In this document: piece by piece, positions 6,042 through 29,171 of the stretch
Position numbering within the stretch: the first letter of the stretch is position 1
Layout of the letters: each line of letters opens with the position of its first letter
Source: Pirellulaceae bacterium
Lineage (GTDB): Bacteria; Planctomycetota; Planctomycetia; Pirellulales; Pirellulaceae
NCBI GenBank assembly: GCA_020852965.1
Contig: JADYZV010000039.1
Coordinates: 1 to 64,000, forward strand
Direction of reading: 5' to 3'
DNA length: 64,000 nucleotides
Notes under the pieces: generated by a model
Database searches by the model: none
What the model saw: only the letters and a program-made list of their open reading frames with translations
What the model was told of the DNA's origin: nothing
Translations under genes and position numbers: made by a program

Positions 6042-7502
6042 CTAGTTGGTTGGCCAGAGCGAGCCCAGTACCTCAACGGTTTGATCGGTCAGCGCCTGGC
6101 CACCTTCGGGGCCGACATGATTGCTCTCGACGATGGCGCTGTAGCCGCCGCCGCGAGCGGCGCGCTGGCTGGGGATGTAGGTGCCTGGGCCAGCCAACTG
6201 GATGATAAAAGTTTGCAAAGCTGGGCTGCGGGCTTTCATCTCAATTCCGAAATCGGTGAACAGTTCGAATTGGTTGGTGGCTATGGCAATGTCTCCCAAG
6301 CGAATCACATGCAATTCCATTTGAAATGGTCTTAGCTCTTCGGCCTGCTGTCGCTCGAAGCGATCGATGGCCGATTGATGCCAAAACCGCCACGTTTTCT
6401 TTGTAGGATCGTTCGACAGGTCGGCAACTTTGGCACGTAGTGCAAATACCTCGTCCCGAGTCACCATGCGCTCTGGCAGATCGATTGTTTTCACTTTGTG
6501 AACGAGTACTGCATCGGCGTGCCGCTCTTGGCTGGCACCGGCATAAGCTTCTTCCCAGGCCGCAACGATGCGGCGCGATAGCTCTTCCAAGCGGGTCAAT
6601 CCGCGCAGCTTTCGCATTCGCTCCTCCGCGTCTTTGCGAAACATTAGATGTGGCGATTGATCGCCAGCGGCACCGGTCCAGGCGAGTACGAGTAGTTCGT
6701 CTCCGTACTTGGCGCGCAGCGACTGGCGAACCGTGTGCCAGAAGTCCGCATTCACCGCCGAACCTCCTTCGACTTCCTGTGACGGGCAGGCGATGTTAAT
6801 GGCTGTGGCTATCAATTTTCCCTGGCCATCCCAAAAGCAGAGCACTTCGACGCCATGGTCTTCGTACCCCTCGATGCCTCGGAAATCGGCGCGGTTGGTG
6901 GCACCATACATCTGAGCGGTACCGTCGCTATAGGTGCTGCGGCGATTGTGAGCTACCACGGCATGACCGAGGCCCCAGCCCACGCTGCCGGGTTGACGCG
7001 ATTGCCACGCACTCACCGCGATGTCCGCCACGCGATCGGCGAGGAATTCAGCATACTCGCTGGGCTGCATGACGCCTTCGGCGGGCAGGTCGTAGACACC
7101 TTCTCGCATGACCGGCGCAGTATGAGTGTGCGTGGCATTCATTACCAACTTGCTCACATCGAAGCCTGGTAGTCGATCCTGGATTCGCTGGCGTACCATC
7201 TCCAGAATCCCTTCGCGAATCGCCACCAAGTCGCACGAAACCATGATAGCCTGGTCCAGCACCATGTCCCCCTCGCGCGATTCCAAGGCTAGTGCCGTGG
7301 CGGTGACGGGACTATCTACCGAACGGGCGATGCGCGTGTGCATCTGACCTGAAAGTGCAACAGGCCCGTCCGGCGTGATGCTGGTCGTTGCTCCGCCAAG
7401 GTGAAGCTCAGAAGCGGTGAGCCTGTCGGCGGGCAGGACGTTCAACACGGCTATGCATACGAATGCATAGTAGCGATACGATTGAGGTGCAAATGAAACC
7501 AT
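6042..7502 (-). CDS. Neutral/alkaline ceramidase-like secreted hydrolase
   Basis: Matches the N-terminal catalytic region of neutral/alkaline non-lysosomal ceramidases, a set of proteins common in planctomycetes. The zinc-site motif NATHTHTAP and the segment LAWTGAAGDQSPH are seen. The product is about 486 residues from the ATG at 7502, which has GGAG eight bases upstream and gives a signal peptide (YAFVCIAVLNVLPADRLTA). The longer open frame to 7655 adds a basic low-complexity tail and is rejected as start. The family removes acyl chains from N-acyl lipids in eukaryotes and some bacteria. For this planctomycete version the substrate is not known, and the protein is shorter than classical ceramidases (~650 or more). 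Confidence 0.8.
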   Translation of the reverse strand: MVSFAPQSYRYYAFVCIAVLNVLPADRLTASELHLGGATTSITPDGPVALSGQMHTRIARSVDSPVTATALALESREGDMVLDQAIMVSCDLVAIREGILEMVRQRIQDRLPGFDVSKLVMNATHTHTAPVMREGVYDLPAEGVMQPSEYAEFLADRVADIAVSAWQSRQPGSVGWGLGHAVVAHNRRSTYSDGTAQMYGATNRADFRGIEGYEDHGVEVLCFWDGQGKLIATAINIACPSQEVEGGSAVNADFWHTVRQSLRAKYGDELLVLAWTGAAGDQSPHLMFRKDAEERMRKLRGLTRLEELSRRIVAAWEEAYAGASQERHADAVLVHKVKTIDLPERMVTRDEVFALRAKVADLSNDPTKKTWRFWHQSAIDRFERQQAEELRPFQMELHVIRLGDIAIATNQFELFTDFGIEMKARSPALQTFIIQLAGPGTYIPSQRAARGGGYSAIVESNHVGPEGGQALTDQTVEVLGSLWPTN

Positions 7503-7725
7503 CACATTTCTCCAGATTGATTGAAACCTTGGTGACTCGCAGTCACTCGTCCTTGTCCTTGTTGTTGTTCTTGGGCTGATCGTCTTGATCTTCCTGTCTG
7601 TCCTGTTCATTGACCCTCGTCTTCGACAATCGTGTCGCCAAACTTCTTTTTCCATTACTTACCAATGAACTTAGATTAACCTGCACCGTACAATTGTCGC
7701 TCATGTGTTGGGGCCAGCGAGAAAA

Positions 7726-9075
7726 TCAATTGAATATTCTCTGCAAGTGGTCGCTGATCTGCGACAATTCTCTCACGAATGCTACGCTGCATAGATCTGT
7801 TAACTCCAAGCTCTCAGGATACCAGCGCTCGATCGCTACAGCCAGGCGTTCCTCGAGTTGTCGGTCGATTCGGAGTTGTCGGGGTAATTGCGCGATGTCG
7901 TCGTGCGCCAAGGGAATTCGCAGTCGCAGACAGGCTGGGCCGCCGCCACCCGCCATACTCTGCTCGAGCGAGACGTAGTGGACTTCTTCAATGGGATGGT
8001 CGGACGAGGCGACGAGGCGCTCGATCAGGCGACCGGTCGAGGCGATCCGTTGGCATTGTTGTGGACAAATTAGCACCATCTGCGGTGTGTGGTTTGACGA
8101 CGTGTGTGTGTGTGGCGTAATAATCTGACTATTGAAGAAATAGCTTTGCACCGCTTCGTCTATGGGTAAATCGGAGTTCGAGATTTCCATACGAAGAAGT
8201 GGAGCGCCAGTAGTTTGTCGGAAAATTTCCTCCAACCGCTGAAGCTGCTGCTCCGCGTTATAGAAAGCCAACTCATGATGGATGAGCAGGCTTGCGTGGC
8301 TGGTGGCGATGACATCATTATGGAATACCCCCGCTGAGATCCCGGCGGGGTGCTGTTGCAGAAAAAAGGTGCGCGCTGGATCGAGTTGATGACGGCGGGC
8401 AATCGCTTCACAAGCGGCCCGAGTTTGTCTGGGGAGAAATCTACAGTCGTGCGAGGCGAGCTCGGAGTCGTCGCCATAGACAAAAATGTTGAATCCAATT
8501 TTACCCGTCGGATCGCTCAAACGCATGTGATTGGCAGCCCCTTCATCGCGGAGCGGAACGATCGAAGAAAGCGGCGGATGGATAGTGCAGTTGTCCTGCA
8601 AACCTAGCAGCCTTTTCAAATCGATAGCACGCTCGGCGGATTCCGATGCGCGATGCCAACTACTGATCAGATTGGCGGGGGTAATGTGCAAGCGACGATC
8701 GCGGCAATCGCAGGCGGCAGAAACGGTGGCCATGTTAGCAGCCCACATGAACGCACAACTGAAGGCAGCAGAGAATGCTTGAGGGGCAATCTGCAGGGCT
8801 GCGGACAGTTGCTCTGAAGATAAGTGCTCTGTCGAATCGACGCCGAGACCCAACTCGTGTAGCCATTTTAAGCGTGGTCGAGGTGGCGGCAGAAATATGT
8901 ATTGAGGAACGCCCAGGCTGGCGACCAATGCGGCTTTGCGCAAGCCCTCTAAGGCTGCTTCGCGCGGCCGGCTGGTTCGATAGGCATGTTGCTGCGAGGC
9001 CACGTTGCCTACGCCCAATCCTCCGAAGTGATGCGTAGGCCCCACGAGTGCATCGATATTTATTTCAGTGAACAT
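7726..9075 (-). CDS. astB: N-succinylarginine dihydrolase
   Basis: Second step of the AST pathway: N2-succinylarginine is hydrolysed to N2-succinylornithine, CO2 and two ammonia. The protein is 449 residues, the family's normal length. It starts with INIDALVGPTHHFGGLGVGN and carries the C-terminal block QSMAGGGGPACLRLRIPL whose Cys is the catalytic nucleophile of this guanidine-modifying fold. Its start overlaps the end of astD by 11 bp, which points to translational coupling and co-transcription. It is the last gene of the operon. Cytoplasmic. Confidence 0.95.
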   Translation of the reverse strand: MFTEINIDALVGPTHHFGGLGVGNVASQQHAYRTSRPREAALEGLRKAALVASLGVPQYIFLPPPRPRLKWLHELGLGVDSTEHLSSEQLSAALQIAPQAFSAAFSCAFMWAANMATVSAACDCRDRRLHITPANLISSWHRASESAERAIDLKRLLGLQDNCTIHPPLSSIVPLRDEGAANHMRLSDPTGKIGFNIFVYGDDSELASHDCRFLPRQTRAACEAIARRHQLDPARTFFLQQHPAGISAGVFHNDVIATSHASLLIHHELAFYNAEQQLQRLEEIFRQTTGAPLLRMEISNSDLPIDEAVQSYFFNSQIITPHTHTSSNHTPQMVLICPQQCQRIASTGRLIERLVASSDHPIEEVHYVSLEQSMAGGGGPACLRLRIPLAHDDIAQLPRQLRIDRQLEERLAVAIERWYPESLELTDLCSVAFVRELSQISDHLQRIFN

Positions 9076-17748: not shown

Positions 17749-19992
17749 CTACTCGTTCAGTGATTCGTCGATGAATGGTTGCACGATTTTGGCCCAGAGC
17801 AACCCGTGAGCCTTGAGTCCCTTGGGGCTGAAGTGGATACCCAGACCGTCGAGGTCGCGATGGTCGCCAGTGAGAGTATCCGTGTCTGGTCCGGCGTGCG
17901 CGATCTTGTCTGCCCAGATCTTTGCTTGGGCAGTGCGCGTCGTGTCGGACGATGGGCGTTCGGGATTGTGGTAGGAGACCTGCGCCACGAACCAGGGGAT
18001 ATCCCAGCCGGCCTTTTCACGCGAGGTGATGATCACTCGCTGGAGTTTCTCGTAGTACTCGTGGGGCGGCATGCCAACATCGGTTTCGCCTTGGTGCCAG
18101 AGGATCGCCCGAAAGCCATGCGGGCCGAGTTGTTGTAGTCGAGTCATCATGTGGGCGAACAGACCCTCGGAGGGTTGCCAAGCGTTGACGCTAGTACCAC
18201 CGAATCCCGTGGAAGCGATTCCAATGGGCACTTGGTAGTGTTCGAAGAGTGCATCACCGAAGGCGGGATAATAGCTTCCACCCTGCGAGTGATCTGCCAC
18301 ACCAATCTGTGGATCATCGGCGATCTGCCAGTGTTCGCCGTCAAACGAAGAGACCATGCCGCTGGTCTGCTTCGTTTGGAACTGTCCGGAGTTGGTAGAG
18401 TTCGATTGCCCCGCCCCGACGAAGACCTCACCCACGCCGAACTTGTCGACCCGCAGCTCGTCGAAAACGCGGCCGGCCTTTTCGAGTTTCAACTTCATTG
18501 AAAACCAGCCGCCAGCGGGAAAGGGGATCTCCTCGTCGAAAGCACCTGTCTTGGGATCGATTGGAATTTCCTGCTCTTGATCGGGGGCTTGGCCTTCAAG
18601 TGCGTTACCTGCGAAACTAACCAGAACCGAATCGGCGTCGGCAGTCGTTGAGCCGCTCACGCGGATGCGGCCGGAGTTGCGAGTCTGGCGCTGGAAGACC
18701 TGCAGTTCCTTGGGAGAGGCAATTGTCGTTTCGTCGGCGGATCGCTGTAATACAAAGTGGTAGGGACGCGGACGCGCGACGAGTCGCTGCAAGGCTACGA
18801 GCTGCTCATTGGCAATGGTAGTCTGTTCGTTAAGTGGAGCGATTAAAGGACTGTCGGGAAGATAGGAGTTGGCAGATCGGTCGGACGTGTTGAGCGCATC
18901 GCGAGCTTCGGTGAGCGATTTGAGCGATAGAGCCTGTGCATCCCAGGGCCCGCCTGGTTGCCATGCGTCTGGGGTCGTCGATGCGATATTGATTCCTTCG
19001 GCCAATCGTTCGGCGCGAAACGTCCCGATCTTTCTGCCCGAGGCGGTCAACGTGTACTCGCCACCGGTTAGATTCTTCACTGCCAGTCGATAGGCGTTCA
19101 GTTCGTTCATCGGTACGAAGCGATATGCCATCGTGGAGAAGATGCCGTTGTTGAAAGGAAGTCCTTCATCGAGTCGCGTGAAGCTTAGCGCGCCGTTGTC
19201 AGTTTTGATATCGGAAATGGTACAACCGGCCGAGCTGACGACTTGGCTGTTGGCCGCGTCGATGGTTGCCGAGGAGACTTCCTCGGGCGCTCCGAGTCCC
19301 TTGAGGATCGCATAGGCCATCGCCAACTGGCCGAGATCGCTGAGGTGGATCGTATCGGCAGCGTGCAAGGTTTCGTGCTTTTCGGGCGGGAGTTTTTCGT
19401 TGGACTTCAAGACGCGGCGTTGGATTTCGCGCATGGCGCGTTGCACGTCGATCGCATGCTCGCCTTCCTCCTTGGCGATGGCCAGCGCATCATCACACAT
19501 CTGCTGTAGGAAGTCGTTCTCGGTCCTATCGGGGTTGCCGCCCGTAGCCGCCGCTGAACAAATGTAGACTCGCACCCCCTTGGCTTTGCAGGCCCGAACG
19601 ATGCCTCGGATCGAGTCGAGGAACAACTGCCGATGCGCGTCATCGGCCTTCATCCCCCAACCGATGTCGTTGATTCCGAAGGCGACGGTCAGCAGGGTGA
19701 CATGGTTGTCGAACACATCCCGCTGCAGTCGCTTCAATCCGCCCGCGGCCGTATCGCCACCGATTCCGACATTGATGAATTGCACCTTGCGGTCGGGGTA
19801 ACGCAGCAGTGTGTAATTCTCGATGTGCTTTCCGTAAACTCGCGCCGCTGTGATGCTATCGCCGAGAAACGCAACCGTATCTCCATCGCGAATCGCGAAA
19901 TCGTCTGCTCGGGAAGTGATCGGGTTTAACAACAATAACAATGGTGCCAGATAGAAAAGTGACGTGTATCGTGGGTTGAGCCAAGCCAACAT
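17749..19992 (-). CDS. Double SGNH hydrolase: GDSL esterase plus sialate O-acetylesterase-like domain
   Basis: A 747-residue exported protein with two esterase domains of the same superfamily. Domain 1 (~30-250) has block I VAFLGDSITAARVYG, block III AFGINDIGWG and the terminal DTIHLSDLG with Asp and His. Domain 2 (~510-745) has VFVGAGQSNSTNSG, a GTSVNAW segment, ILWHQGETDVG and LDGLGIHFSPKGLKAHG. A middle region of ~250 residues is a linker or non-catalytic beta domain. The second domain is of the type that removes acetyl groups from sialic acid or other polysaccharides; the first could act on a different acyl ester. The pair suggests debranching of acylated glycans. N-terminus: signal peptide LFYLAPLLLLLNPITSRA. 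Confidence 0.88.
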   Translation of the reverse strand: MLAWLNPRYTSLFYLAPLLLLLNPITSRADDFAIRDGDTVAFLGDSITAARVYGKHIENYTLLRYPDRKVQFINVGIGGDTAAGGLKRLQRDVFDNHVTLLTVAFGINDIGWGMKADDAHRQLFLDSIRGIVRACKAKGVRVYICSAAATGGNPDRTENDFLQQMCDDALAIAKEEGEHAIDVQRAMREIQRRVLKSNEKLPPEKHETLHAADTIHLSDLGQLAMAYAILKGLGAPEEVSSATIDAANSQVVSSAGCTISDIKTDNGALSFTRLDEGLPFNNGIFSTMAYRFVPMNELNAYRLAVKNLTGGEYTLTASGRKIGTFRAERLAEGINIASTTPDAWQPGGPWDAQALSLKSLTEARDALNTSDRSANSYLPDSPLIAPLNEQTTIANEQLVALQRLVARPRPYHFVLQRSADETTIASPKELQVFQRQTRNSGRIRVSGSTTADADSVLVSFAGNALEGQAPDQEQEIPIDPKTGAFDEEIPFPAGGWFSMKLKLEKAGRVFDELRVDKFGVGEVFVGAGQSNSTNSGQFQTKQTSGMVSSFDGEHWQIADDPQIGVADHSQGGSYYPAFGDALFEHYQVPIGIASTGFGGTSVNAWQPSEGLFAHMMTRLQQLGPHGFRAILWHQGETDVGMPPHEYYEKLQRVIITSREKAGWDIPWFVAQVSYHNPERPSSDTTRTAQAKIWADKIAHAGPDTDTLTGDHRDLDGLGIHFSPKGLKAHGLLWAKIVQPFIDESLNE

Positions 19993-20545
19993 GGAGAAAC
20001 TCCTTGGACGGAATGAACTTTGGATTCGATGAAACGATCCTAGCCGACTGCGATCTCACGATTGTAAACCATCAGCAGTCTGCCGGATTGCCTTCTGTCT
20101 TTTCTGAGAGGCCCCCGCGAGCTTGCCTCGCTCGGTGAGCGAGTTTTGCGATTAGCTCGTTCTCGCAGGCGCAGAACATTCCCGCCCGATCGCCGCCAGC
20201 GGCGGAGCGTCGGGCGGGAAAACGACACGAAGTGGGCGACGCGTTCTACTAACAAAACTTTGCTTCCTGCCAGGCAAGCTGGCAGGGGGCTCAGCTCGTT
20301 AAAAAGCGATATTTCTTGAGAGAGGAAATGTATACCTCCCACTGGAGAATGGGAGCTTTTGCACACCAGAAGGGGCCCAAGGGCTTGTTTTTTCCCCTGG
20401 AGCGCTTAAAATCGCTAACACCTACTTTTTAGCGTATGGCAATTATTTTGGTTGGAATCGACCGCGAATCCAATTTGCGCACATCTTGCGATTTTGCCGC
20501 GTAGCTTCTACACACTCTTCTCTTCTAGTTATTGGAGATCGAACT
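19993..20545. other. Repeat-rich intergenic stretch upstream of the DUF1559 gene
   Basis: No gene. It holds a reverse copy of the REP-like element with the hairpin CTCGCTC-GGT-GAGCGAG (20127-20143), a GC-rich palindrome at 20179-20220 and the ACAAAACTTTGCTTCC element at 20252-20289. The 3' part (20400-20545) should hold the promoter of the DUF1559 gene, but no strong box could be chosen. Confidence 0.65.
20179..20289. repeat. Composite palindromic element, copy A
   Basis: TTCCCGCCCGA at 20179-20189 pairs with TCGGGCGGGAA at 20210-20220, with CGCCGCC/GGCGG inside. A 31-bp spacer follows, then ACAAAACTTTGCTTCCTG and the small hairpin GCCAGGCAAGCTGGC ending near 20283. The same order of parts occurs at 50243-50357 with a different palindrome. 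Confidence 0.8.
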
Positions 20546-21523
20546 ATGCGAACTGCCTTTTCTTCCTCACGTCCCAAAGGATTTACACTAGTTGAGTTGC
20601 TGGTGGTGATTGCGATCATCGGCATCTTGGTTGGTCTGTTATTGCCCGCCGTCCAAGCAGCTCGCGAAGCTGCTCGACGCATGCAATGTACCAACAACCT
20701 CAAGCAACTCGGATTGTCACTGCACAACTATCACGACACCCACCGAATGTTCCCCGCAGGTTTGTATGAACAACTTACTTCGACGGGCGGAAATACTGAT
20801 AACATCCCGCTATTGGGCTGGGGTGTGTCGGTCTTGCCATTCATTGAGCAAGGAAACGTGTTCAATCAACTCAATTCGGGCACCAACTCGCTGCAGGCGA
20901 TGGTCAGCACTCCGTTGTTGCTCAATATTCTGCAGACTCCAATCCCTGCATTCAAATGTCCTTCAGACAGTTCCGACAACTTGAATAGCCATCGCCCCAT
21001 CCTCAATATGTCGGGAACTCCGGTACAAATCGCGACCGCTAACTATGTCGGCTGTAACGGACAAAACGGCGACAATGGAATGATGGTCATGAGTTCGAAA
21101 GGGAAGATAACGTTCGGCAGTTTGACCGACGGATCGAGCAATATTATTGCTGTAGGTGAACGTTGCAAGCAGAATGGAAAGGACAGGGTGACGGGCGTAG
21201 CCGTTCAAAATCTTGCCGCATCATGGGCCGGTGTTGCTCAACGCAATGGTAACCTATCAAATAACATATCGGGAGCGCTCGGCACGAGCTTGTACCAGAT
21301 GCAGACTGGCTACTCAGGTACCCCGACTGAACAACCATACTTTTGCTTTGCCAGTAATCACACAGGTGGCGCGAATTTCGTGTTTGGCGATGGTTCCGTC
21401 CATTTCCTCAGCCAAAATATCGATTGGTCCGATGCTTCTCATGATGGCAATCATAAGAACGAGTGGGGCACCTTCAATCTACTTAACGACATCGCCGATG
21501 GTTATGTAGTCGGCGAGTACTGA
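20546..21523 (+). CDS. DUF1559 pseudopilin-like protein (H-x9-DG)
   Basis: Planctomycete-type surface protein with a type IV pilin/type II secretion pseudopilin N-terminus: [20 protein letters not shown], cleaved between G and F by prepilin peptidase, then a long helix and [20 protein letters not shown]. The DUF1559 signature near the end, [17 protein letters not shown] (His-x9-Asp-Gly), is intact. Length 325 residues from the ATG at 20546, which has GGAG eight bases upstream; the longer frame to 20486 lacks this. Dozens of paralogs per genome are usual in planctomycetes and their function is unknown. A strong hairpin follows the stop. Confidence 0.93.
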
Positions 21524-21598
21524 TCGATCCGAGTAGCGGGCACAGCCTTGTGCCGTCCACGATGACCTGATAAGTGTATGTCTTTAGGCAAGCACGGC

Positions 21599-21621
21599 AA
21601 CGGCACACAATGTGTGCCGTT
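21599..21621 (+). terminator. Hairpin after the DUF1559 gene
   Basis: AACGGCACAC-AAT-GTGTGCCGTT forms a perfect 10-bp stem with a 3-base loop about 75 bp after the stop codon, followed by a moderately T-rich stretch (TGCTATTTAG). The T run is short, so termination efficiency is uncertain. Confidence 0.6.
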
Positions 21622-21941
21622 TGCTATTTAGGGGCTATGCTGGAATGGCCCTACCGAGTGCGGGAAGCGCCCGTGTGAACGTAGTCTGCTCGTGGCCGAT
21701 CTGGAGTGCGTCGAGTTCTCGGAGCTTTGGCCTTGAGAGTGGCCATAGCACACTGGAACTGGGCGGTGGAAACGAAGTTGGTAGTGCGCGGTGACCTTGT
21801 CGTGTGAAGGCGGATCGTGGTGCCAGTGGTTCTTGCTTCCAACCTCACTGGCGACTCGATGTTTCCGGTTGGTGTGGACTTTGGGGGAGGCCAAAGCGGT
21901 GATGAATCCCCGCACTCCAAGGAGCAAACTGTCTGCGCCGA
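21622..21941. other. Non-coding interval with a putative dispersed repeat
   Basis: Several overlapping small frames occur here on both strands, but none looks like a real protein. The minus-strand phrase ECGDSSPLWPPPK resembles a spurious translation I have seen repeatedly in genomes of this phylum, which suggests a dispersed non-coding repeat. This is recollection, not a search result. Confidence 0.4.
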
Positions 21942-24482
21942 CTACTTTTGCTTCAGTAGACTTGAGTGCCGTCGCAATTCTTCTAACAGCCGCTGGGCGA
22001 TCACTTTATGTCCCTTTACGCTAGCGTGATGGATGTCTGCATAAAGCATTACTTCGGCGGTTTCGTAATCATCGGCCCAGTCCGCTAAGTCGAGTATTTG
22101 GAAGCCTGCTTGCTGGGCTAGGCCGCGCGCCATTTCGGGTGTGCCGGGAATCTCGAATTGGCCTGGTATTGGCAAGTCGACCCAGATCGGTACGAGCGAA
22201 TGTGCATTGCAGAACGTAATAATCCGATTGTACGTACAACTTAGGATCTCCAATGCGTGATTCGGCAAGCGATTGCGAATCACACCAGACGGTGTAGTCG
22301 CATCGACTCCAGCCTCTGTCAAAATATTGAGCAAGCAAGGATCGTCATCGATTAGTCCAAGGTCCGCGAACTTGGCCATATCGAAGACGGCGCTGTAGAT
22401 TTCGTCTTGGTGTGCGATGTAGAGAACCACATCCGGATCAAACTCGAGAACTTTCTTCTCCAGCAGCGCGCGTCGACGAAGAGGGGAATATTTGCCCACG
22501 CCGAAGTTCAGGACTTCGTACCTAGGATTCAAGTCCGTGAAATATTTGTCGGAATTGAGCTGCTTTTCCAATTGCACCGCGAACGTTTCTTCATCTCCTA
22601 CGCCATAGCCCATGACAACACTCGATCCGAGCAAGGCAATTCGCAGGGTTCCCGGCTGCTTCGTTTTCTCAATGTCGTGATTGCGCATGTTCCAGCGGTT
22701 GATTGAAATCATGGCACCGTGGTATTCCGCCTTGAAATTGGGGATCAATTCGATTTGTAAGATATCGCGGCGACTACGGGTGAAGTCCATGAAGTGGCGC
22801 CGCTCGGTGTCGTCGCGAAGGGCAGCTCCATGTCCCGAGAATAGCCCAGCTTGAATGCTCCCTTCGTTCAGCTCCTCGTAGTAGCCTTGTACCATTTGAC
22901 TGGCTTCCGTTTGGCTGAAGTGATCCGATTGCATGGCCAGCATCAAATGCGCCCACTCGATGGGCACGTTCTGTACTAGTGTTGGCTGGGCGAATAAGAA
23001 GAGAGCCCCAAGCCAAGCGATGTTCAACCCGCTTCGATTGCGCAGGACCGGCCCGGTCTTTGACTGAGGGCCTCGCGATCGTTGGAATAGATAGAAGTGC
23101 AGAGCCAAGCCAGCGGCAAAGACTCCGGCCAGCAGGGCCAGGCACAGTGTCCACTGCTTCGCGTCCAAAAAATACGCAAGCCCGATTTCTTTTTGTAGGT
23201 TTACTAACAAGTCTGGATTGGTCCACCTGGCCCAAAAGAAACTGACTAGTAGAAAGGTGCCCATGGTTCGTAGGACTCGATACGCTCCAGCGCTAAGGGA
23301 ATAGGCCTTCGAACCGCGATCTGGGTGTCGAGCATGGCGATAGTCGAGCAGTGCATTGGCGGCCACAAACACTCCCGCACCGAGCCAGAGTTGGGCGTCC
23401 ATCAGGCTCAGCGGAAATTCTCCGAGCAACCAGAATACCTGCCAGGAGTGGGCGATCCATGTTCCGAAAAAGACCCACATGACGGCCAGGCAAACGGCGA
23501 TAGGATCTCCGCAATAGCGTCGCAATCTAAAAAATGCTGGCATGAAAAACATCTTGGACATGAAGTCCTTCCAGTAGATGTTGATGCGTCGCCAAATATC
23601 CGTAAAGCCCGATGCGAAAAAGAACCAATCGTGCGTGCGTGGCAAACGATAACCGTAGAGGTGAAGGACGCCGATGGCCAAATGGAATTGGCCAGCGACG
23701 CGCAGGTAGAGTCCGTAATTGGTGACTAGAAATAACAGCAGAGTATTGATGTTCTCGATGGACCCTGGGGGCGGCAGAATCCAATAGCGAATCGCACGGT
23801 AGACCAACAGGTGCGTGATCCCCAGCACGATCCAGTTGACCCCTTGTTGACAATCTTCAGTGGATAGTTTTGCCTGGCGCGTTTGCTGGTATGTGGAGAA
23901 ATCGACGACAGGAAATAGCACAAAGCAAACGTTGGGAATCAGGAAGAAATAGGGGAGTGACTCCTGCAGAGGCGGCATCTTTGGCTGGCTGCGAGTATCG
24001 CTGACAAATAGAATCAAGCGGAACATGAACATCGACCCAACGACGGGCCAGAAAAGACTGGACGATCCGCTACGCAGTATCGCCAACAGCACACCCGCTG
24101 CTAGTAGTAAGCCAATCCGCCACCAGTAAGCGAGCGGAAGATAGCATAGGCCTACCAATGAACTCCCCACAGCGAATGCAAGGGCGGTTTGCGCCCAGCC
24201 GAGAATCAGTCCCGAAGTCAGGCCAGTCAGGAAAACGAAGAACCACGATCGCCACTGGTAGGGCAATTGGAAATATATGGGAAATCCAGCGATGGCGATG
24301 GCCAACATGGTGAACAACTGCCGGCGCTCTTCGATTTCGAACATGCGAACGATCAGCACCGCCAAGAGCAGTTGCAGTGCAACCATCATCCATCGTGAGC
24401 TGGCCGAAGGAGTGGCCAGAGATTGACCCGCCGCGTGTCCGAGTGCCGCTGGAGGATCGACTCCAGGTGTCGCGAGTGTCAT
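21942..24482 (-). CDS. MBOAT O-acyltransferase fused to SGNH hydrolase domain
   Basis: Integral membrane protein of about 846 residues. The N-terminal ~550 residues have about a dozen hydrophobic segments and MBOAT landmarks in the AlgI/DltB style: FTDIWRRINIYWKDFMSK (the conserved WRR-x-x-I-x-W) and later WVFFGTWIAHSWQVFW carrying the His of the active site. The C-terminal ~250 residues are an extracytoplasmic SGNH domain with ALLGSSVVMGYGVGDEETF (Ser) and YADIHHASVKGH (Asp-x-x-His). It probably moves an acyl chain from a carrier to a surface polymer or lipid. The start at 24482 (MTLATPGVD) is preferred because the 50 upstream codons are mostly an inverted repeat. It is last in a unit with the ACP and fatty-acyl-AMP ligase. 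Confidence 0.85.
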   Translation of the reverse strand: MTLATPGVDPPAALGHAAGQSLATPSASSRWMMVALQLLLAVLIVRMFEIEERRQLFTMLAIAIAGFPIYFQLPYQWRSWFFVFLTGLTSGLILGWAQTALAFAVGSSLVGLCYLPLAYWWRIGLLLAAGVLLAILRSGSSSLFWPVVGSMFMFRLILFVSDTRSQPKMPPLQESLPYFFLIPNVCFVLFPVVDFSTYQQTRQAKLSTEDCQQGVNWIVLGITHLLVYRAIRYWILPPPGSIENINTLLLFLVTNYGLYLRVAGQFHLAIGVLHLYGYRLPRTHDWFFFASGFTDIWRRINIYWKDFMSKMFFMPAFFRLRRYCGDPIAVCLAVMWVFFGTWIAHSWQVFWLLGEFPLSLMDAQLWLGAGVFVAANALLDYRHARHPDRGSKAYSLSAGAYRVLRTMGTFLLVSFFWARWTNPDLLVNLQKEIGLAYFLDAKQWTLCLALLAGVFAAGLALHFYLFQRSRGPQSKTGPVLRNRSGLNIAWLGALFLFAQPTLVQNVPIEWAHLMLAMQSDHFSQTEASQMVQGYYEELNEGSIQAGLFSGHGAALRDDTERRHFMDFTRSRRDILQIELIPNFKAEYHGAMISINRWNMRNHDIEKTKQPGTLRIALLGSSVVMGYGVGDEETFAVQLEKQLNSDKYFTDLNPRYEVLNFGVGKYSPLRRRALLEKKVLEFDPDVVLYIAHQDEIYSAVFDMAKFADLGLIDDDPCLLNILTEAGVDATTPSGVIRNRLPNHALEILSCTYNRIITFCNAHSLVPIWVDLPIPGQFEIPGTPEMARGLAQQAGFQILDLADWADDYETAEVMLYADIHHASVKGHKVIAQRLLEELRRHSSLLKQK

Positions 24483-24518
24483 GTGTGAGCCTTGGGGTAA
24501 AACCCAGATTATACATGT

Positions 24519-24601
24519 ACTCCCCTGCGGGGGAGTCGCGAGTAATGCGAGCGGAGGGGGAAGTATGGCGACGATAGCCCTCCCCGCTCGCATTACTCGC
24601 G
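24519..24601. repeat. Palindromes between the ACP and MBOAT genes
   Basis: CGCGAGTAATGCGAGCGG at 24537-24554 is exactly repeated in reverse at 24584-24601, an 18-bp stem extended by GGGG/CCCC-rich bases. A smaller hairpin, ACTCCC-CTGCGG-GGGAGT, is directly next to it at 24519-24536. The structure fills most of the gap and ends about 37 bp before the MBOAT start codon. Confidence 0.85.
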
Positions 24602-24662
24602 AACCTCCCGCATACGCGAGGGTACGACACACCTCGTTTTAGTCACTCATGAGTAATCTGGA

Positions 24663-24962
24663 TTAAACGTCATGATTGGGGTTGAGTTGGGTACGTCCGG
24701 CCGCGAGCTCGCGAGCGATCCATGCCGCCAGATCGTCGACGGTTGGATATCGAGCAAGCGGGTTGGATAGAATGCGACAGCCCAGCCACTCCTCCAGTTC
24801 ACCGATCATGCCAATAAACTGCATCGAATCGATTCCGAACGACATCAATGGCTGGTCAGCGCGCACCGTGTCGGGACTGAGCTTCAGCTCTTGCGCGATT
24901 GCCGCTAGCAAGTGGTGTCGAATCTCGTCGACCGAAATCGACGACGGGGGTGTCTGGTTCAT
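24663..24962 (-). CDS. Acyl carrier protein
   Basis: A 99-residue carrier with the phosphopantetheine attachment motif in SFGIDSMQFIGMIGELEEWL (Ser of DSM). The helix before it, IRHHLLAAIAQELKLSPDTV, and the C-terminal YPTVDDLAAWIARELA fit a free-standing ACP of the type that partners with AMP-ligases rather than the FabF/AcpP housekeeping form. It lies between the acyl-AMP ligase and the MBOAT gene in the same direction, as DltC does in the dlt operon. Start ATG at 24962. Confidence 0.9.
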   Translation of the reverse strand: MNQTPPSSISVDEIRHHLLAAIAQELKLSPDTVRADQPLMSFGIDSMQFIGMIGELEEWLGCRILSNPLARYPTVDDLAAWIARELAAGRTQLNPNHDV

Positions 24963-25105
24963 CGTATCCGTATAGGGGTAAAATTGTTGTAGTCGTTAAC
25001 GAATTTTGCAATCGCTTGCACCATGCGCTTGACAGTTTATGAAAGCATGGAAGCGAGTAAGCTCGACTTCGGTCCCTGCCACCCCGTGACCCCTTTAGCC
25101 CTTCA

Positions 25106-25181
25106 TCCGTGCTCCGGCCTTGCCATCCGTGCGAGGATTCGTGTCATTCGGCTAGTGCGGATGGCGAGGCCGGAGCACGGA
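25106..25181. repeat. 24-bp inverted repeat after the acyl-AMP ligase gene
   Basis: TCCGTGCTCCGGCCTTGCCA plus TCCG (25106-25129) pairs with 25158-25181 with a single G-T position out of 24, and a 28-base loop. It abuts the ligase stop codon at 25182 and has no T run, so it may stabilise mRNA ends or be a dispersed palindrome rather than a simple terminator. Confidence 0.85.
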
Positions 25182-26858
25182 TCACTCATTCTCGGGCTCG
25201 GTCCATTCCAGCAATTGTCCGGTCGCATAAAGTTCGCGAGAGGCAAACCGCTGCACCTTGCCGCTGGTAGTTTTCGGCAATGCGCCTCGGCGTAGGAGCC
25301 GAATGTCGTGAGCATGTAGCTGGTGTTCCTCTGCGATCGTTTGACGAATTAGTATAGTCAGTTGACGCTTGTCCAAGCGACGATTTCCGCGATCGATCTC
25401 TTGCAGGATCACCAATCGTTCCTCACCATCCGTCTCGCAACCCAGCGCCACGGTGGAACCGGCCGCAAACGCCTCATGCAATTTCCGTACAGTGCATTCG
25501 ATGTCATCGGGATAATAATTGCGGCCACGGATGATGATCAAGTCCTTGAGGCGGCCAGAGATGAATAGTTCACCATCGTCAAAGAAGCCAAGATCACCTG
25601 TCCGGAGAAAGGGTCCACGCCGGTCGGGCTCCAGGAAGGCTTTGAAGGTAAGGGCCGTCTCCTCGGGGCGATTCCAGTATCCTTTGGCCACGCAGGGGCC
25701 GCTTATCCAAATCTCTCCCACGCGCCCAGGTGGGCACTCTCGAGCGGAGTCGGGATCGACAATGACAACTTCCTGGTACAACCATGGTCGGCCACTGCTC
25801 ACCAATTGCCGGCCTGGTCGCTCGCTTGCCGTTGGCGTCATGCGCCCAAGGCGTTCGACGAAGTTACGGATCACGGGAGGCTCGAAGTGCCTTCCACCGG
25901 TGACCAGCAGCGTCGCCTCAGCCAATCCATAGGAAGGAAAGAAGGCAGTTGGATTGAAGCCGCACGGTGCAAACGCTTTGGTAAACCGCTCCAGAGTGCC
26001 TGGCGATACTGTCTCGGCACCTACACAGGCGATTTCCCAACTGCTCAGATCGAGCGTAGCCTTATGCTCCTCTTTCACTTTCCGCACGCACAATTCGAAG
26101 GCGAAATTCGGACCTCCACTGGCGTAAGCTGTCAGGGGTGCCAGGTGACTAATCGCTTGCAACCAACGCACCGGCTTGCGTAGAAACTGCAGGGGAGACA
26201 TGAAATAGCATGGGCCATCCACGAAGACGGACTGCAAGACGCATCCCATGAGCCCCATATCGTGATGGAAAGGGAGCCAACACACACCGACTCCAGGCCG
26301 TCGGTGTGTCATGTGATTGAACGCTAGTTGAATAATATACTCGTTCTTCATTATGTTGTCGTGGGATACCATGACACCACGTGGAGAGCCGGTCGAGCCG
26401 CTGGTGTATTGCAGTAGCGCAATGGACTGTGGATCGATTTTGGGGCGCTGCCAATGTTCGTCTGTCGGAACATCCATCGCGTTGGTATTGAGCCATTGGA
26501 TCGAAGCGAAATTGGGTTCGTCCGCGCAAAGCTGTTGCACCTCAGCGGCAATATCGCCACCTGTTAGAAACACACGCGGGTCGCAGTCCTTGACGATTCG
26601 GCGAACCGATGTCAGTGGATCGAGTTCCAAGCCACGTACGGGTGGATAGGTGGGTACCGGTATCATGCCTGCGTACAAGCAGCCGAAGAATGCCGGCATG
26701 AACTCTAAACCAGGACCGAACAGAAGTAGTACTCGGTCGCCCATGCGGCCGATACTTTGGAGCCGCGCTGCAATCGAGCGGGCAAGTTTGTCCAGTTGCC
26801 CGTAGCTCAGCGACGGACCGTTGACGATACCACTATCAAAGAAGTCGTCGTCAAGCAA
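25182..26858 (-). CDS. Fatty-acyl-AMP ligase (FAAL-type)
   Basis: Adenylate-forming enzyme that activates a fatty acid and hands it to an ACP. Motifs are the P-loop YTSGSTGSPRGVMVSH, FPSYGLAEATLLVTGG (typical FAAL wording), GEIWISGPCVAKGYWNRPEET, LRTGDLGFFDDGELFISGR and the C-terminal Lys region LPKTTSGKVQRFASRE. The length, about 558 residues from TTG 26858, is close to normal, but family-like sequence continues upstream (AAEAPDRKIYTLLDDD) to about 26918. The only ATG in this frame, at 26981, is followed at once by TAA, so the start is uncertain: TTG 26858, CTG near 26915, or an unusual codon. First gene of the FAAL-ACP-MBOAT unit. Cytoplasmic. Confidence 0.88.
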   Translation of the reverse strand: MLDDDFFDSGIVNGPSLSYGQLDKLARSIAARLQSIGRMGDRVLLLFGPGLEFMPAFFGCLYAGMIPVPTYPPVRGLELDPLTSVRRIVKDCDPRVFLTGGDIAAEVQQLCADEPNFASIQWLNTNAMDVPTDEHWQRPKIDPQSIALLQYTSGSTGSPRGVMVSHDNIMKNEYIIQLAFNHMTHRRPGVGVCWLPFHHDMGLMGCVLQSVFVDGPCYFMSPLQFLRKPVRWLQAISHLAPLTAYASGGPNFAFELCVRKVKEEHKATLDLSSWEIACVGAETVSPGTLERFTKAFAPCGFNPTAFFPSYGLAEATLLVTGGRHFEPPVIRNFVERLGRMTPTASERPGRQLVSSGRPWLYQEVVIVDPDSARECPPGRVGEIWISGPCVAKGYWNRPEETALTFKAFLEPDRRGPFLRTGDLGFFDDGELFISGRLKDLIIIRGRNYYPDDIECTVRKLHEAFAAGSTVALGCETDGEERLVILQEIDRGNRRLDKRQLTILIRQTIAEEHQLHAHDIRLLRRGALPKTTSGKVQRFASRELYATGQLLEWTEPENE

Positions 26859-27091
26859 TGTGTAGATTTTTCGGTCGGGAGCCTCCGCCGCGCGGCGGCA
26901 GAGCAGGTCGACCAGAGTCGCATCTGCTGGCGGTGGGGGCCACTCGTCGGAAGTGAAGTGCTGCTCGATAGGTATTTACATCGCTGTTGAAAGTGCCACG
27001 GCGGTCCCCGCCGTGATGGATGGTGATTCGACCGTGATCTATCACCGATAACTCATGGAACTACTACGTTAATCGGCGATTTGGAACAATT

Positions 27092-27153
27092 CTCGGTGGA
27101 GACCACCGAGCTACTTTTTAATTCTCGGTGGCGACCACCGAGCTACTTTTTCT
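27092..27153. repeat. Duplicated hairpin with T runs
   Basis: CTCGGTGG-AGA-CCACCGAG followed by CTACTTTTT (27092-27119) is repeated 32 bp later as CTCGGTGG-CGA-CCACCGAG plus CTACTTTTT (27124-27151). In plus orientation each looks like an intrinsic terminator. The second T run is also the end of the neighbouring minus-strand gene (Lys codons and stop), so the duplication has copied the last codons of that gene. Confidence 0.85.
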
Positions 27154-27532
27154 TTTTGACAACGACCACTTTATGATTGGCTTCGTCGTACTGAAGCTGA
27201 AAACCACCAGGCAAATTGCTGGGGAATTGAATATTGTTTGGCTCGATAATGCCAGACTTGAACTCGGCGTAGTCGGCTGGGTAATGGCCGTTGGCCTTGT
27301 TGTAGGCTTCGATTTCCTCCGTGTGTTCGACCTGTTTAAACATTACTTGGATATCAGTGGGGAACTTTTTTATGTCGATTTGCGGGCCCGACGCTTCAAT
27401 ATATATCGGAAGATCGGTTGAATCGCCGCGAACGATGGGCGCTGTCACCTCGCCGACAGGTGCCTGGGGCTTGGTACAGCCGTGGCATGACAGGAGTACG
27501 AATGCTACCAATATCAAATTGCGCAACTGCAT
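27143..27532 (-). CDS. Small lipoprotein, unknown function
   Basis: Not recognised. A 129-residue protein with a lipoprotein signal peptide (LILVAFVLLSCHGC, Cys at ~19). The mature part is mostly polar with EAYNKANGHYPADYAEFKSG, a phrase seen in pseudopilin-related and planctomycete lipoproteins, and ends in a lysine tail (VVVVKKKK). No catalytic residues can be proposed. The stop codon lies within a duplicated hairpin repeat. Confidence 0.7.
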   Translation of the reverse strand: MQLRNLILVAFVLLSCHGCTKPQAPVGEVTAPIVRGDSTDLPIYIEASGPQIDIKKFPTDIQVMFKQVEHTEEIEAYNKANGHYPADYAEFKSGIIEPNNIQFPSNLPGGFQLQYDEANHKVVVVKKKK

Positions 27533-27719
27533 TATTGAACCTCGTTGAACGTTTGAATGGAGAAGTAGAAGTTAAGCAAGAGTAGTCGTAGTAAGCACCC
27601 GCACTAAGTCGCCAGCCTGCTATCGCCCAAACGGCCAATCGCGTGGAGGAACGATGCTATGGGTGCTCTAAGAGAATTATAAACGATATCGCCTGGCAGT
27701 GTGAATTGGCACTCCCTGG

Positions 27720-29171
27720 TCAGGCGATGATATCGTGCACGACGTTGCCGTAAATATCGGTTAGGCGGAAGTCCCTGCCTGCGTAGTTGAAAGTCAACTG
27801 TTTGTGATCGAGTCCCAGCAGGTGCAGGATCGTGGCGTGCCAGTCGTGAATGTGAACCGGTTTTTCGACTGCTTGATAGCCCAGGTCGTCGGTGGCTCCG
27901 TGGCTAGTGCCTCCTTTGATGCCTCCGCCGGCCATCCACAGCGTATACCCCTTGTTGTTATGATCGCGTCCCGTGCCGCTTTGAGCGTAGGGGGTTCGAC
28001 CGAATTCTCCGGCCCACACCACCAGCGTTTCGTCTAGCATTCCGCGTTCTTTGAGATCTGCCAGCAGTGCCGCTACCGGTTGGTCCGTGGCTAGGCAAGC
28101 CTCCGGCAACTCGGTTTGGAGTAGGAAGTGGTGATCCCAACTGTCGGGGGCCGTCAACTCGATAAATCGCACACCGGCCTCGGCGAGCCGACGAGCGAGC
28201 AGGCACTGTTTGCCGAAGAGATCTGTTGCCAGGCCAGCTCCGACGCCGTAGGCATCGAGTGTCGTTTGCGATTCGGTCGAAACGTCGAGCAGTTCGGGGA
28301 CTTCGTCTTGCATGCGGAAAGCGAGTTCGAACGACTCGATCGCTCCCTCAATCTCCGGATGGTACCCGTCGCGCTCTAACTTACTCGCGTTGAGGTCGCG
28401 GATTAGATCGAGCTGTTGACGCTGCATTCTCGGTGTGAGCCTCGAGTTTTCGATATTTTTCAGCGGTGGGCCAGGCTCCTTGTCGATGCCCATCAGAGAG
28501 GCATAGAAACCGGGAATCTGATTTGTGCCGATCTTTGTTGCTTGATAAACGGCCGGCAAAAATGCGCTACCAAAGTTTTGAGAACCACCGTTCTCCGCCG
28601 GCGGGTTGAGCGTGATAAAGCCAGGTAGATTTACGTTTTCACTTCCCAATCCGTACAACGACCAGGCCCCCAACGAGGGCCGCGTAAATTGGAAACTGCC
28701 CGTGTGCATTTGAATAAACGCTTGCGAATGATTCGGCAGATCCGTGTGCATGCTTTTAATGAAGCATATATCATCGGCATGTTTGGCTACGTGTGGACAG
28801 AGCTCCGATAGCCACTGACCCGACTGGCCATGTTGTGAGAATTGAAAGGGAGAGCCCATCAAGCCTGCATTGCCGGCGAGCGCGCTGACTGGTGCTTGGC
28901 CGCCATCGTGCGCCCCGAGCAACGGCTTGTAATCGAACAGATCGACATGCGAGGGTCCACCATTCATACAAAGAAAGATGACGCGTTTCGCCTTGGCGGG
29001 AAAGTGAGTCGCTTTGCGTGCGAGCGGGTCGGCCTTTGGCGCAGCATCGCGCGCGGCCGCCTCCTGAGCGAGGCTGGCGAAGGCCAAGTAGCCGAATCCG
29101 GATGCAAGCGACTTCAAGGCAGTACGGCGTGGCAACGAAGGTGACGGGAAGTGCGTGGGCATATCGTTCAT
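27720..29171 (-). CDS. DUF1501 protein, Tat-type signal
   Basis: Typical planctomycete DUF1501 protein of the sulfatase/phosphatase-like fold, 483 residues. The N-terminal SLPRRTALKSLASGFG has a twin-arginine signal. Conserved phrases are VIFLCMNGGPSHVDLFDYKP, TLVVWAGEFGRTPYAQ, GRDHNNKGYTLWMAGGGIKGG and the DWHATILHLLGLDH end. The second start (M4) is possible. It lies downstream of the PSCyt1/DUF1549/DUF1553 gene in the same direction. Such pairs are widespread in the phylum and are thought to act in the periplasm, but the reaction is unknown. Confidence 0.93.
   Translation of the reverse strand: MNDMPTHFPSPSLPRRTALKSLASGFGYLAFASLAQEAAARDAAPKADPLARKATHFPAKAKRVIFLCMNGGPSHVDLFDYKPLLGAHDGGQAPVSALAGNAGLMGSPFQFSQHGQSGQWLSELCPHVAKHADDICFIKSMHTDLPNHSQAFIQMHTGSFQFTRPSLGAWSLYGLGSENVNLPGFITLNPPAENGGSQNFGSAFLPAVYQATKIGTNQIPGFYASLMGIDKEPGPPLKNIENSRLTPRMQRQQLDLIRDLNASKLERDGYHPEIEGAIESFELAFRMQDEVPELLDVSTESQTTLDAYGVGAGLATDLFGKQCLLARRLAEAGVRFIELTAPDSWDHHFLLQTELPEACLATDQPVAALLADLKERGMLDETLVVWAGEFGRTPYAQSGTGRDHNNKGYTLWMAGGGIKGGTSHGATDDLGYQAVEKPVHIHDWHATILHLLGLDHKQLTFNYAGRDFRLTDIYGNVVHDIIA

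Follow-up and report, generated by a model that had tools for sequence, protein, structure and literature searches.

The window analysed here, 64,000 nucleotides of contig JADYZV010000039.1 from a Pirellulaceae bacterium (assembly GCA_020852965.1), carries on its minus strand a cassette of three genes encoding a fatty-acyl-AMP ligase (FAAL), a free-standing acyl carrier protein (ACP) and a single-chain fusion of a membrane-bound O-acyltransferase (MBOAT) with an SGNH domain. With a probability that we put at roughly 0.6, these genes, read from sequence, encode a carrier-fed system which, through FAAL, ACP, a tyrosine linker and an SGNH relay, acylates something outside the cytoplasmic membrane. 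The cassette is apparently a real Dlt/Pat-like system that works like Dlt and Pat yet falls outside the strict definition of Dlt, and apparently one not described before. A first-pass annotation of the window had proposed such a Dlt-like logic (ligase, carrier, MBOAT, SGNH) for three genes running in one direction; the direction is confirmed, and the logic agrees with the family identities of the proteins and with the gene neighbourhood in relatives. The three genes are:

21942..24482, minus strand: fused MBOAT-SGNH acyltransferase, 846 residues from ATG 24482
24663..24962, minus strand: free-standing ACP, 99 residues, attachment Ser in GIDSM (PF00550)
25182..26975, minus strand: FAAL, a 597-residue open frame identified by Pfam, NCBIfam, the PDB and alignment

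The MBOAT-SGNH fusion protein

Judged by its predicted fold, the third protein is an MBOAT-SGNH fusion. An AlphaFold2 model computed from a 49-row alignment of the fusion reached a predicted local distance difference test (pLDDT) score of 86.4 and a predicted template modelling (pTM) score of 0.85. Foldseek searches with this model returned DltB first (8jem, E = 1.7e-6, target TM score 0.63); HHAT came next, and PORCN and SGNH enzymes, TesA among them, ranked lower. At the sequence level, the SGNH half gave a weak match to the Pfam family Lipase_GDSL_2 (E = 4.4e-4, below the cut-off), which matches 33 of the 49 aligned members at E ≤ 0.001. The MBOAT half of the window protein has no Pfam family match, and no Pfam or NCBIfam model reaches its cut-off on it; at E ≤ 0.001, PF03062 matches none of the 49 members and nothing in the window's own genome. 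The NCBIfam DltB model scores E = 0.015 on the window protein and E ≤ 0.001 on two of the 49 members, phmmer matches the MBOAT half weakly to DltB (E = 0.11), and a profile of the fusion alignment retrieved four SGNH-type sequences and no MBOAT one from the PDB at E ≤ 0.01. Since PF03062 is silent, the MBOAT assignment draws on the fold, the conservation of residues and the weak DltB match. The DltB-like fold of the model, its SGNH fold and the conserved residues bear out the 846-residue fusion of the first-pass annotation.

Conservation was counted over 81 full-length copies from several phyla, the window's included, all single frames of more than 780 residues scoring above 300 bits; the set includes close relatives, and some loci contribute two copies. 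Eleven partial, broken or short fusion hits were left out, and loci L129, L131-L136, L186 and L187 (L numbers designate loci) stand outside this count. The following residues, given with their codons, are present in 81/81 copies:

23580..23582, minus strand: Asn301, which the phmmer alignment appears to pair with DltB His289
23448..23450, minus strand: His345, the invariant MBOAT histidine
22878..22883, minus strand: Tyr534-Tyr535, in the linker motif GYYExL between the last transmembrane helix and the SGNH domain, candidate acyl shuttle
22620..22622, minus strand: Ser621, the SGNH nucleophile
22026..22028, minus strand: His819, the SGNH catalytic His

The same six residues are invariant (49/49) in an alignment (A2) that includes L129, L131 and L133. 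Two points qualify the first annotation of the active sites as intact in all parts. In the MBOAT half the catalytic His expected on alignment is kept as His345, but Asn301 occupies, in every copy, what we take to be the place of DltB His289 (paired by the phmmer alignment). In the SGNH half, Ser621 and His819 are universal and the window literally reads D816xxH819, but position 817, the usual Asp place, is Ile.

Between residues 425 and 580, nine columns are conserved at 80% or more, and the two tyrosines are the only invariant ones (81 copies). Model confidence is low in this linker (blocks in 521-540 near 54, residues 541-559 below 50). The place of the Tyr534/Tyr535 pair fits described systems, an analogy that makes the two residues candidates for an acyl shuttle within the chain.

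The ligase and its carrier

The ligase matches Pfam AMP-binding (E = 6.3e-62). Its best NCBIfam matches are FAAL models, from 4.6e-134 on, every one below its curated cut-off, and its top PDB match is 7r7e (E = 8.5e-134); in both rankings FAALs come ahead of acyl-CoA ligases. Moreover, when aligned with the adenylation-domain (A-domain) ligase of L086, a comparison that the first-pass annotation had suggested making with FAAL and FACL structures, the protein shows about 18 extra residues where most other FAAL rows have theirs, and it contains the C-terminal Lys motif. The rankings and the FAAL-type insertion both agree with the annotated FAAL. ATG 26981, taken earlier as its start, cannot serve, being followed directly in frame by TAA (26978-26976). 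The earliest ATG, GTG or TTG of the FAAL frame is TTG 26858, which falls within the domain; the gene therefore either begins at a non-standard codon or is misassembled at this point.

The carrier matches PP-binding (PF00550, E = 5.1e-13), and its attachment serine, annotated in a DSM motif and found here in GIDSM, is kept in 15/15 aligned carriers. As is usual for its family, the FAAL would be expected to load this free ACP.

The cassette in related Planctomycetia

Scanning GTDB with the window's fusion protein and its paralog from the same genome yielded 257 pattern matches and 180 confirmed relatives, of which the best 80 were kept, representing 79 loci. In an 88-row tree of the fusion, made after L130 (a copy of L034) had been dropped, eleven Planctomycetia copies including the window's form one group (SH-aLRT, an approximate likelihood ratio support, 100). 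Two further genomes (L186 and L187) bring this clade to 13 distinct loci. Under the midpoint root, the group nearest to it comprises two copies from Acidobacteriota whose neighbouring genes are prolyl-type (support 85). The paralog belongs to a second cassette of the window's own genome, L031.

The neighbourhood recurs in these relatives, as the first-pass reading of a linked cassette would have it: an ACP is found in 11 of the 13 loci and a FAAL in seven (the window, L031, L036, L038, L129, L186 and L187), and four of the other six are short or cut contigs (L033, L034 and L037 on contigs below 6.3 kb, L035 ending 1.25 kb past the fusion). In the window, L036, L038, L186 and L187, the FAAL is encoded on the same strand as the fusion. 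Relatives with the same neighbours have fusion proteins only about 36-38% identical to that of the window. In a 20-row FAAL tree, the ligases of the window, L038, L129, L036, L186 and L187 form one clade (97/97) and fall into the two groups that the fusion tree also shows, (window,(L038,L129)) with 86/89 and 100/99 and (L036,(L186,L187)) with 99/98 and 98/97.

Donor modules across the fusion family

The planctomycete framing of the first-pass annotation holds for the cassette with FAAL and ACP, but the fusion itself is found in other phyla too: the best 80 of the 180 relatives come from Planctomycetota, Pseudomonadota, Acidobacteriota, Gemmatimonadota, Rhodothermota, Hydrogenedentota, Verrucomicrobiota and others. 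Outside the window clade (a count that also omits L135, identical to L102), 40/75 loci combine, within 8 kb, a carrier scoring >45 bits with an A-domain ligase (>400 bits) and a protein resembling acyl-CoA dehydrogenases (>200 bits). This full prolyl-type module is present in 28 of the 37 such loci with 5 kb on both sides; no donor gene whatever is seen in six of these 37, and a carrier gene lies near the fusion in 55/75.

Comparison with the PDB covered a single representative of each prolyl-type part, namely the L086 ligase, the L086 dehydrogenase and the L049 carrier. The ligase matches the L-proline--[L-prolyl-carrier protein] ligase 6o6e (E = 1.2e-109), below linear gramicidin synthetase chains only, the dehydrogenase matches the prolyl-ACP dehydrogenase 4irn (E = 7e-105), and the carrier matches peptidyl carrier proteins, PltL included. 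Both the L086 and the L049 dehydrogenase also hit the NCBIfam models PigA and RedW, with scores short of the cut-offs. Flavin-halogenase-like genes lie near the fusion at L091:2974-4293, L134:1041-2333 and L084:4998-6377 and 6446-7864; that of L134 is nearest to PltA (5dbj, E = 9.4e-118), the halogenase of pyrrolyl-PltL. The prolyl/pyrrolyl reading is drawn from these PDB and NCBIfam matches of ligase, dehydrogenase, carrier and L134 halogenase; A-domain code strings for prolyl specificity were not used, a literature search for them having found none. Many members of the fusion family are thus probably fed pyrrole-2-carboxyl, sometimes halogenated, to judge from their neighbours. Another FAAL-like ligase is present in L083, L096 and L106, the carriers of L083 and L096 retaining prolyl-type wording.

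The fusion enzyme may be a chassis served by differing donor modules, mostly of prolyl/pyrrolyl type where a donor is seen and FAAL plus ACP in the window clade. The window looks like a donor-swapped branch, the direction of the swap being read from a midpoint-rooted tree.

The carriers at L049:10499-10759 and L086:10506-10766 have as best NCBIfam model NF052616 (ACP_for_OlsHI), below its cut-off. An ornithine-lipid reading drawn from this match was dropped: the available part of PMC12493201 describes OlsH/OlsI as a GH3-like enzyme and an alpha/beta hydrolase, and contains neither MBOAT nor 'acyl carrier'. In L061, L077, L098, L040 and L052, fusion copies stand in a row, some of them partial, and neither a ligase nor a carrier was seen in the sequence examined; L040 has a very weak dehydrogenase-like match.

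The fusion is rare: in a sample of the phylum, 12 of 392 genomes, the window's own included, match it, seven with a match that passes residue 690 and five aligning best over the MBOAT half only. A plasmid collection contained no near match, and one distant protein match, on a Microvirga plasmid. The same-genus genome of L002 carries an SGNH-half fragment with one stop, a sequence that suggests that fusion genes can decay.

Neighbouring genes and intergenic sequences

Three items that the first-pass annotation did not list are the invariant Tyr pair, the second own-genome copy and the following neighbour:

20486..21523, plus strand: DUF1559 (PF07596) prepilin-like protein by Pfam, convergent with the fusion gene; likely start ATG near 20543

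This gene sits 0.4 kb beyond the fusion gene's end. Of the 13 clade loci, 11 have a DUF1559 gene no more than 0.9 kb from the fusion, convergent in ten of the eleven (not in L131); in the remaining two, 13 bp and 1.25 kb of contig follow the fusion. Of the 49 DUF1559 matches in the window's own genome, itself included, the one nearest to the window's adjoins the second cassette (55% identity, 300 bits; the next scores 168.5). An AlphaFold2 model of the DUF1559 protein had a pLDDT of 37.9 and was not used. A small lipoprotein-like open reading frame (ORF) accompanies 10/13 clade loci, leucine-rich-repeat-like in L031 by a below-cut-off match only; for the window, tblastn gave no counterpart (best E 2.1). 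In L036 and L186 the ACP and fusion genes are separated by a gene of the sulfotransferase family, and so, judged by likeness, are those of L187. The DUF1559, small lipoprotein and sulfotransferase genes are the best hints to the acceptor, and only hints.

The intergenic gaps measure 219 bp between FAAL and ACP and 180 bp between ACP and fusion, and contain:

24526..24612, no strand assigned: dispersed palindrome with 35-nt arms, between ACP and fusion gene
25105..25182, no strand assigned: dispersed palindrome with 25-nt arms (96%), between FAAL and ACP

They belong to two dispersed families with 30 and 75 matches in the genome, both strands counted. An alternative fusion start upstream, GTG 24632, would have the reading cross one of these palindromes. 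An Rfam scan of positions 20000-28000 gave no match at the gathering threshold.

Upstream of the FAAL lies a small lipoprotein-like ORF of 129 residues with no Pfam match (27143-27532). Between it and the FAAL are two 32-bp tandem copies, each with a CTCGGTGG/CCACCGAG hairpin (27088-27151). Positions 17749-19992 encode a 747-residue protein with GDSL and SASA domains, whose N-terminus is resembled by that of a GDSL protein directly upstream of the FAAL in L187 (5369-6709).

Discussion

Envelope acylation follows two plans in the available part of a 2025 paper (PMC12148441): an MBOAT with a separate SGNH protein, or an AT3 protein fused to SGNH. The same part states that MBOAT/SGNH pathways except Dlt are without a similar carrier protein, and that an acyl-Tyr relay is known for Dlt and PatA/PatB, in which an invariant Tyr in FXYXXF, on DltX or the PatA C-terminus, ferries the acyl group to the SGNH protein. 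The window cassette resembles Dlt (DltA, DltC, DltB, DltX and DltD; teichoic-acid D-alanylation) in its AMP-forming ligase, dedicated carrier, MBOAT and SGNH protein, and its Tyr pair is a candidate counterpart, within the fusion, of the relay given for Dlt in that part of PMC12148441. It differs in that its ligase is a FAAL, whereas that of Dlt is an amino-acid (D-Ala) ligase, and in that MBOAT and SGNH are one chain instead of separate DltB and DltD; no separate DltX was noticed in the window, no search having been aimed at it; Asn301 replaces DltB His289, and the MBOAT half escapes PF03062. A strict definition of Dlt, with a D-Ala ligase and separate DltB, DltD and DltX, thus does not cover the cassette.

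Likeness to other systems is also partial. With PatA/PatB and AlgI/AlgJ the cassette shares an MBOAT followed by further transmembrane helices (as suggested by the helices of the model), a Tyr motif (here the candidate GYYExL) and an SGNH partner. With OatA and OafA/OafB it shares a membrane acyltransferase fused to SGNH, and its candidate Tyr shuttle parallels the Tyr relay given for OatA (available part of PMC12148441); AT3/TmAT proteins are however unrelated to MBOAT according to the accessible text of PMC12423673, the main text of which, so far as accessible, lacks the term 'carrier protein'. The ligase and dehydrogenase of L086 and the carrier of L049 match chains of a prolyl-carrier ligase, a prolyl-ACP dehydrogenase and PCP/PltL, and in this resemble the pyrrole-2-carboxyl-carrier modules (PltF/PltL/PltE and their prodigiosin or anatoxin counterparts); in contrast to those modules, the related loci pair them with a membrane fusion enzyme, and the window has FAAL and ACP instead. 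As in the FAAL-ACP starter modules of lipopeptides and polyketides, the FAAL would be expected to load a free ACP, but the downstream partner here is a membrane acyltransferase and not a non-ribosomal peptide synthetase (NRPS) or polyketide synthase (PKS). No fused, carrier-fed MBOAT-SGNH enzyme is described among the matches listed, and no paper joining FAAL with 'membrane-bound O-acyltransferase' was found, in mostly open-access literature. In a term look-up of the available text of the 2025 FAAL review PMC11837247, MBOAT, O-acyltransferase, planctomycet, polysaccharide and operon were all absent.

In the mechanism that we propose, the FAAL would adenylate a fatty acid, probably a long-chain one, and load it on the ACP, as its family suggests. 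The MBOAT half, with His345 and Asn301, would accept the acyl group of acyl-ACP on the cytoplasmic side of the membrane and pass it, by analogy with DltX and PatA, to Tyr534 or Tyr535 of the GYYExL linker on the outer side. The linker could then swing to the fused SGNH half, where Ser621 would accept the acyl group and hand it on to an acceptor, possibly the DUF1559 pilin-like protein, the small lipoprotein of the relatives or a glycan.

Several observations weigh against this carrier-fed system. The counts of invariance take in close relatives and multiple copies per genome, from frames selected by length; the motif GYYExL differs from the printed FXYXXF; and the window has Asn601 where 80/81 copies carry Asp and Ile817 where 73/81 carry Asp, although Asp816 adjoins the latter and could serve. 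Within the clade, no ACP hit was obtained in L042 and L129, six of the 13 loci have no FAAL, and for L042 and L131 this holds across about 6.6 to 8 kb either side; the FAAL is opposite the fusion's strand in L031 and L129, the ACP is on the other strand in L038 and L131, and the L031 FAAL falls outside the cassette FAAL clade. Fusions occur in only 4/241 genomes of the family at E ≤ 1e-30 (own included; L132 prolyl-type by its neighbours). In the window the FAAL frame has no standard start codon, and dispersed palindromes occupy both gaps, for which reason a single cassette transcript is only a possibility. The palindromes and the gaps of 180 and 219 bp part the genes, and FAALs are common in the class (52/148 genomes at E ≤ 1e-90, many within longer frames), as would suit three unrelated genes lying side by side by chance. 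Such a coincidence is nevertheless very improbable, given that the neighbours are the same in relatives whose fusions are only about 36-38% identical and that the FAAL and fusion trees match for six loci. The acid itself could be another carboxylic acid, for instance a hydroxylated or polyketide-like one, FAAL-type ligases accepting varied acids: ligases and carriers vary between branches of the fusion family, the NCBIfam ranking is headed by an NRPS/PKS model, and the best-scoring PDB chains are FAALs of polyketide synthases. Fatty-acyl ligases come next in both rankings and the FAAL-typical insertion is present, and we regard an acid other than an ordinary fatty acid as rather unlikely.

For the carrier-fed system as such, the candidate acceptors are of two kinds. 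A polysaccharide of the cell wall or outside the cell, like the acceptors of AlgI/AlgJ, PatA/PatB and Dlt, is a serious candidate, if somewhat short of an even chance. Among 77 neighbour ORFs from 19 loci (of 110 ORFs from 20 loci, 33 having been omitted by eye, mostly spurious-looking frames; 18 of the 19 loci are prolyl-type), Pfam recognised seven glycosyltransferases, two polysaccharide biosynthesis proteins (flippase-type) and two polysaccharide pyruvyl transferases; an ORF near L045 matches O-antigen ligase, and carbohydrate esterases are among the enzymes that Foldseek finds similar to the SGNH half. Near the window and clade cassettes, however, where most ORFs were not family-scanned, no polysaccharide locus was recognised, and the sulfotransferase-family gene between ACP and fusion in L036, L186 and, by likeness, L187 speaks against a polysaccharide. 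A protein acceptor, the DUF1559 protein or the relatives' small lipoprotein being acylated or lipidated outside the membrane, is a tentative idea that we consider doubtful. It is favoured by the largely convergent DUF1559 gene of 11/13 clade loci, by the closeness of the window's DUF1559 protein to that beside the second cassette, by the small lipoprotein of 10/13 loci and, in the accessible text of PMC12423673, by the need for a TmAT-type protein in F-pilin acetylation. Linkage is not acylation, however; DUF1559 genes are numerous in this genome, none was hit in the outside-clade loci searched (planctomycete L132-L134 included), and the window lacks a detectable counterpart of the lipoprotein.

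The fusion family would represent a third plan of envelope acylation, in which MBOAT and SGNH form one chain and a dedicated carrier is encoded nearby. With it, the donors would come to include fatty acyl groups and, to judge from gene neighbours, pyrrolyl and halopyrrolyl ones, none of which is reported for envelope acylation among the matches listed; the single chain of the fusion allows the Tyr shuttle to be tested, and the family offers a functional lead for one group of the DUF1559 proteins that are numerous in this genome. A bolder proposal, which on the evidence of sequence must be called quite unlikely, is that a cross-phylum, hitherto undescribed single-chain MBOAT-SGNH family with a Tyr shuttle serves as a shared exporter for different carrier-bound acids, pyrrole-2-carboxyl, in places halogenated, in many bacteria and fatty acyl in Planctomycetia, where the fatty acyl would go to a dedicated DUF1559 pilin-like protein. 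If true, a fatty-acylated DUF1559 protein would give the cell a lipidated surface fibre or anchor.

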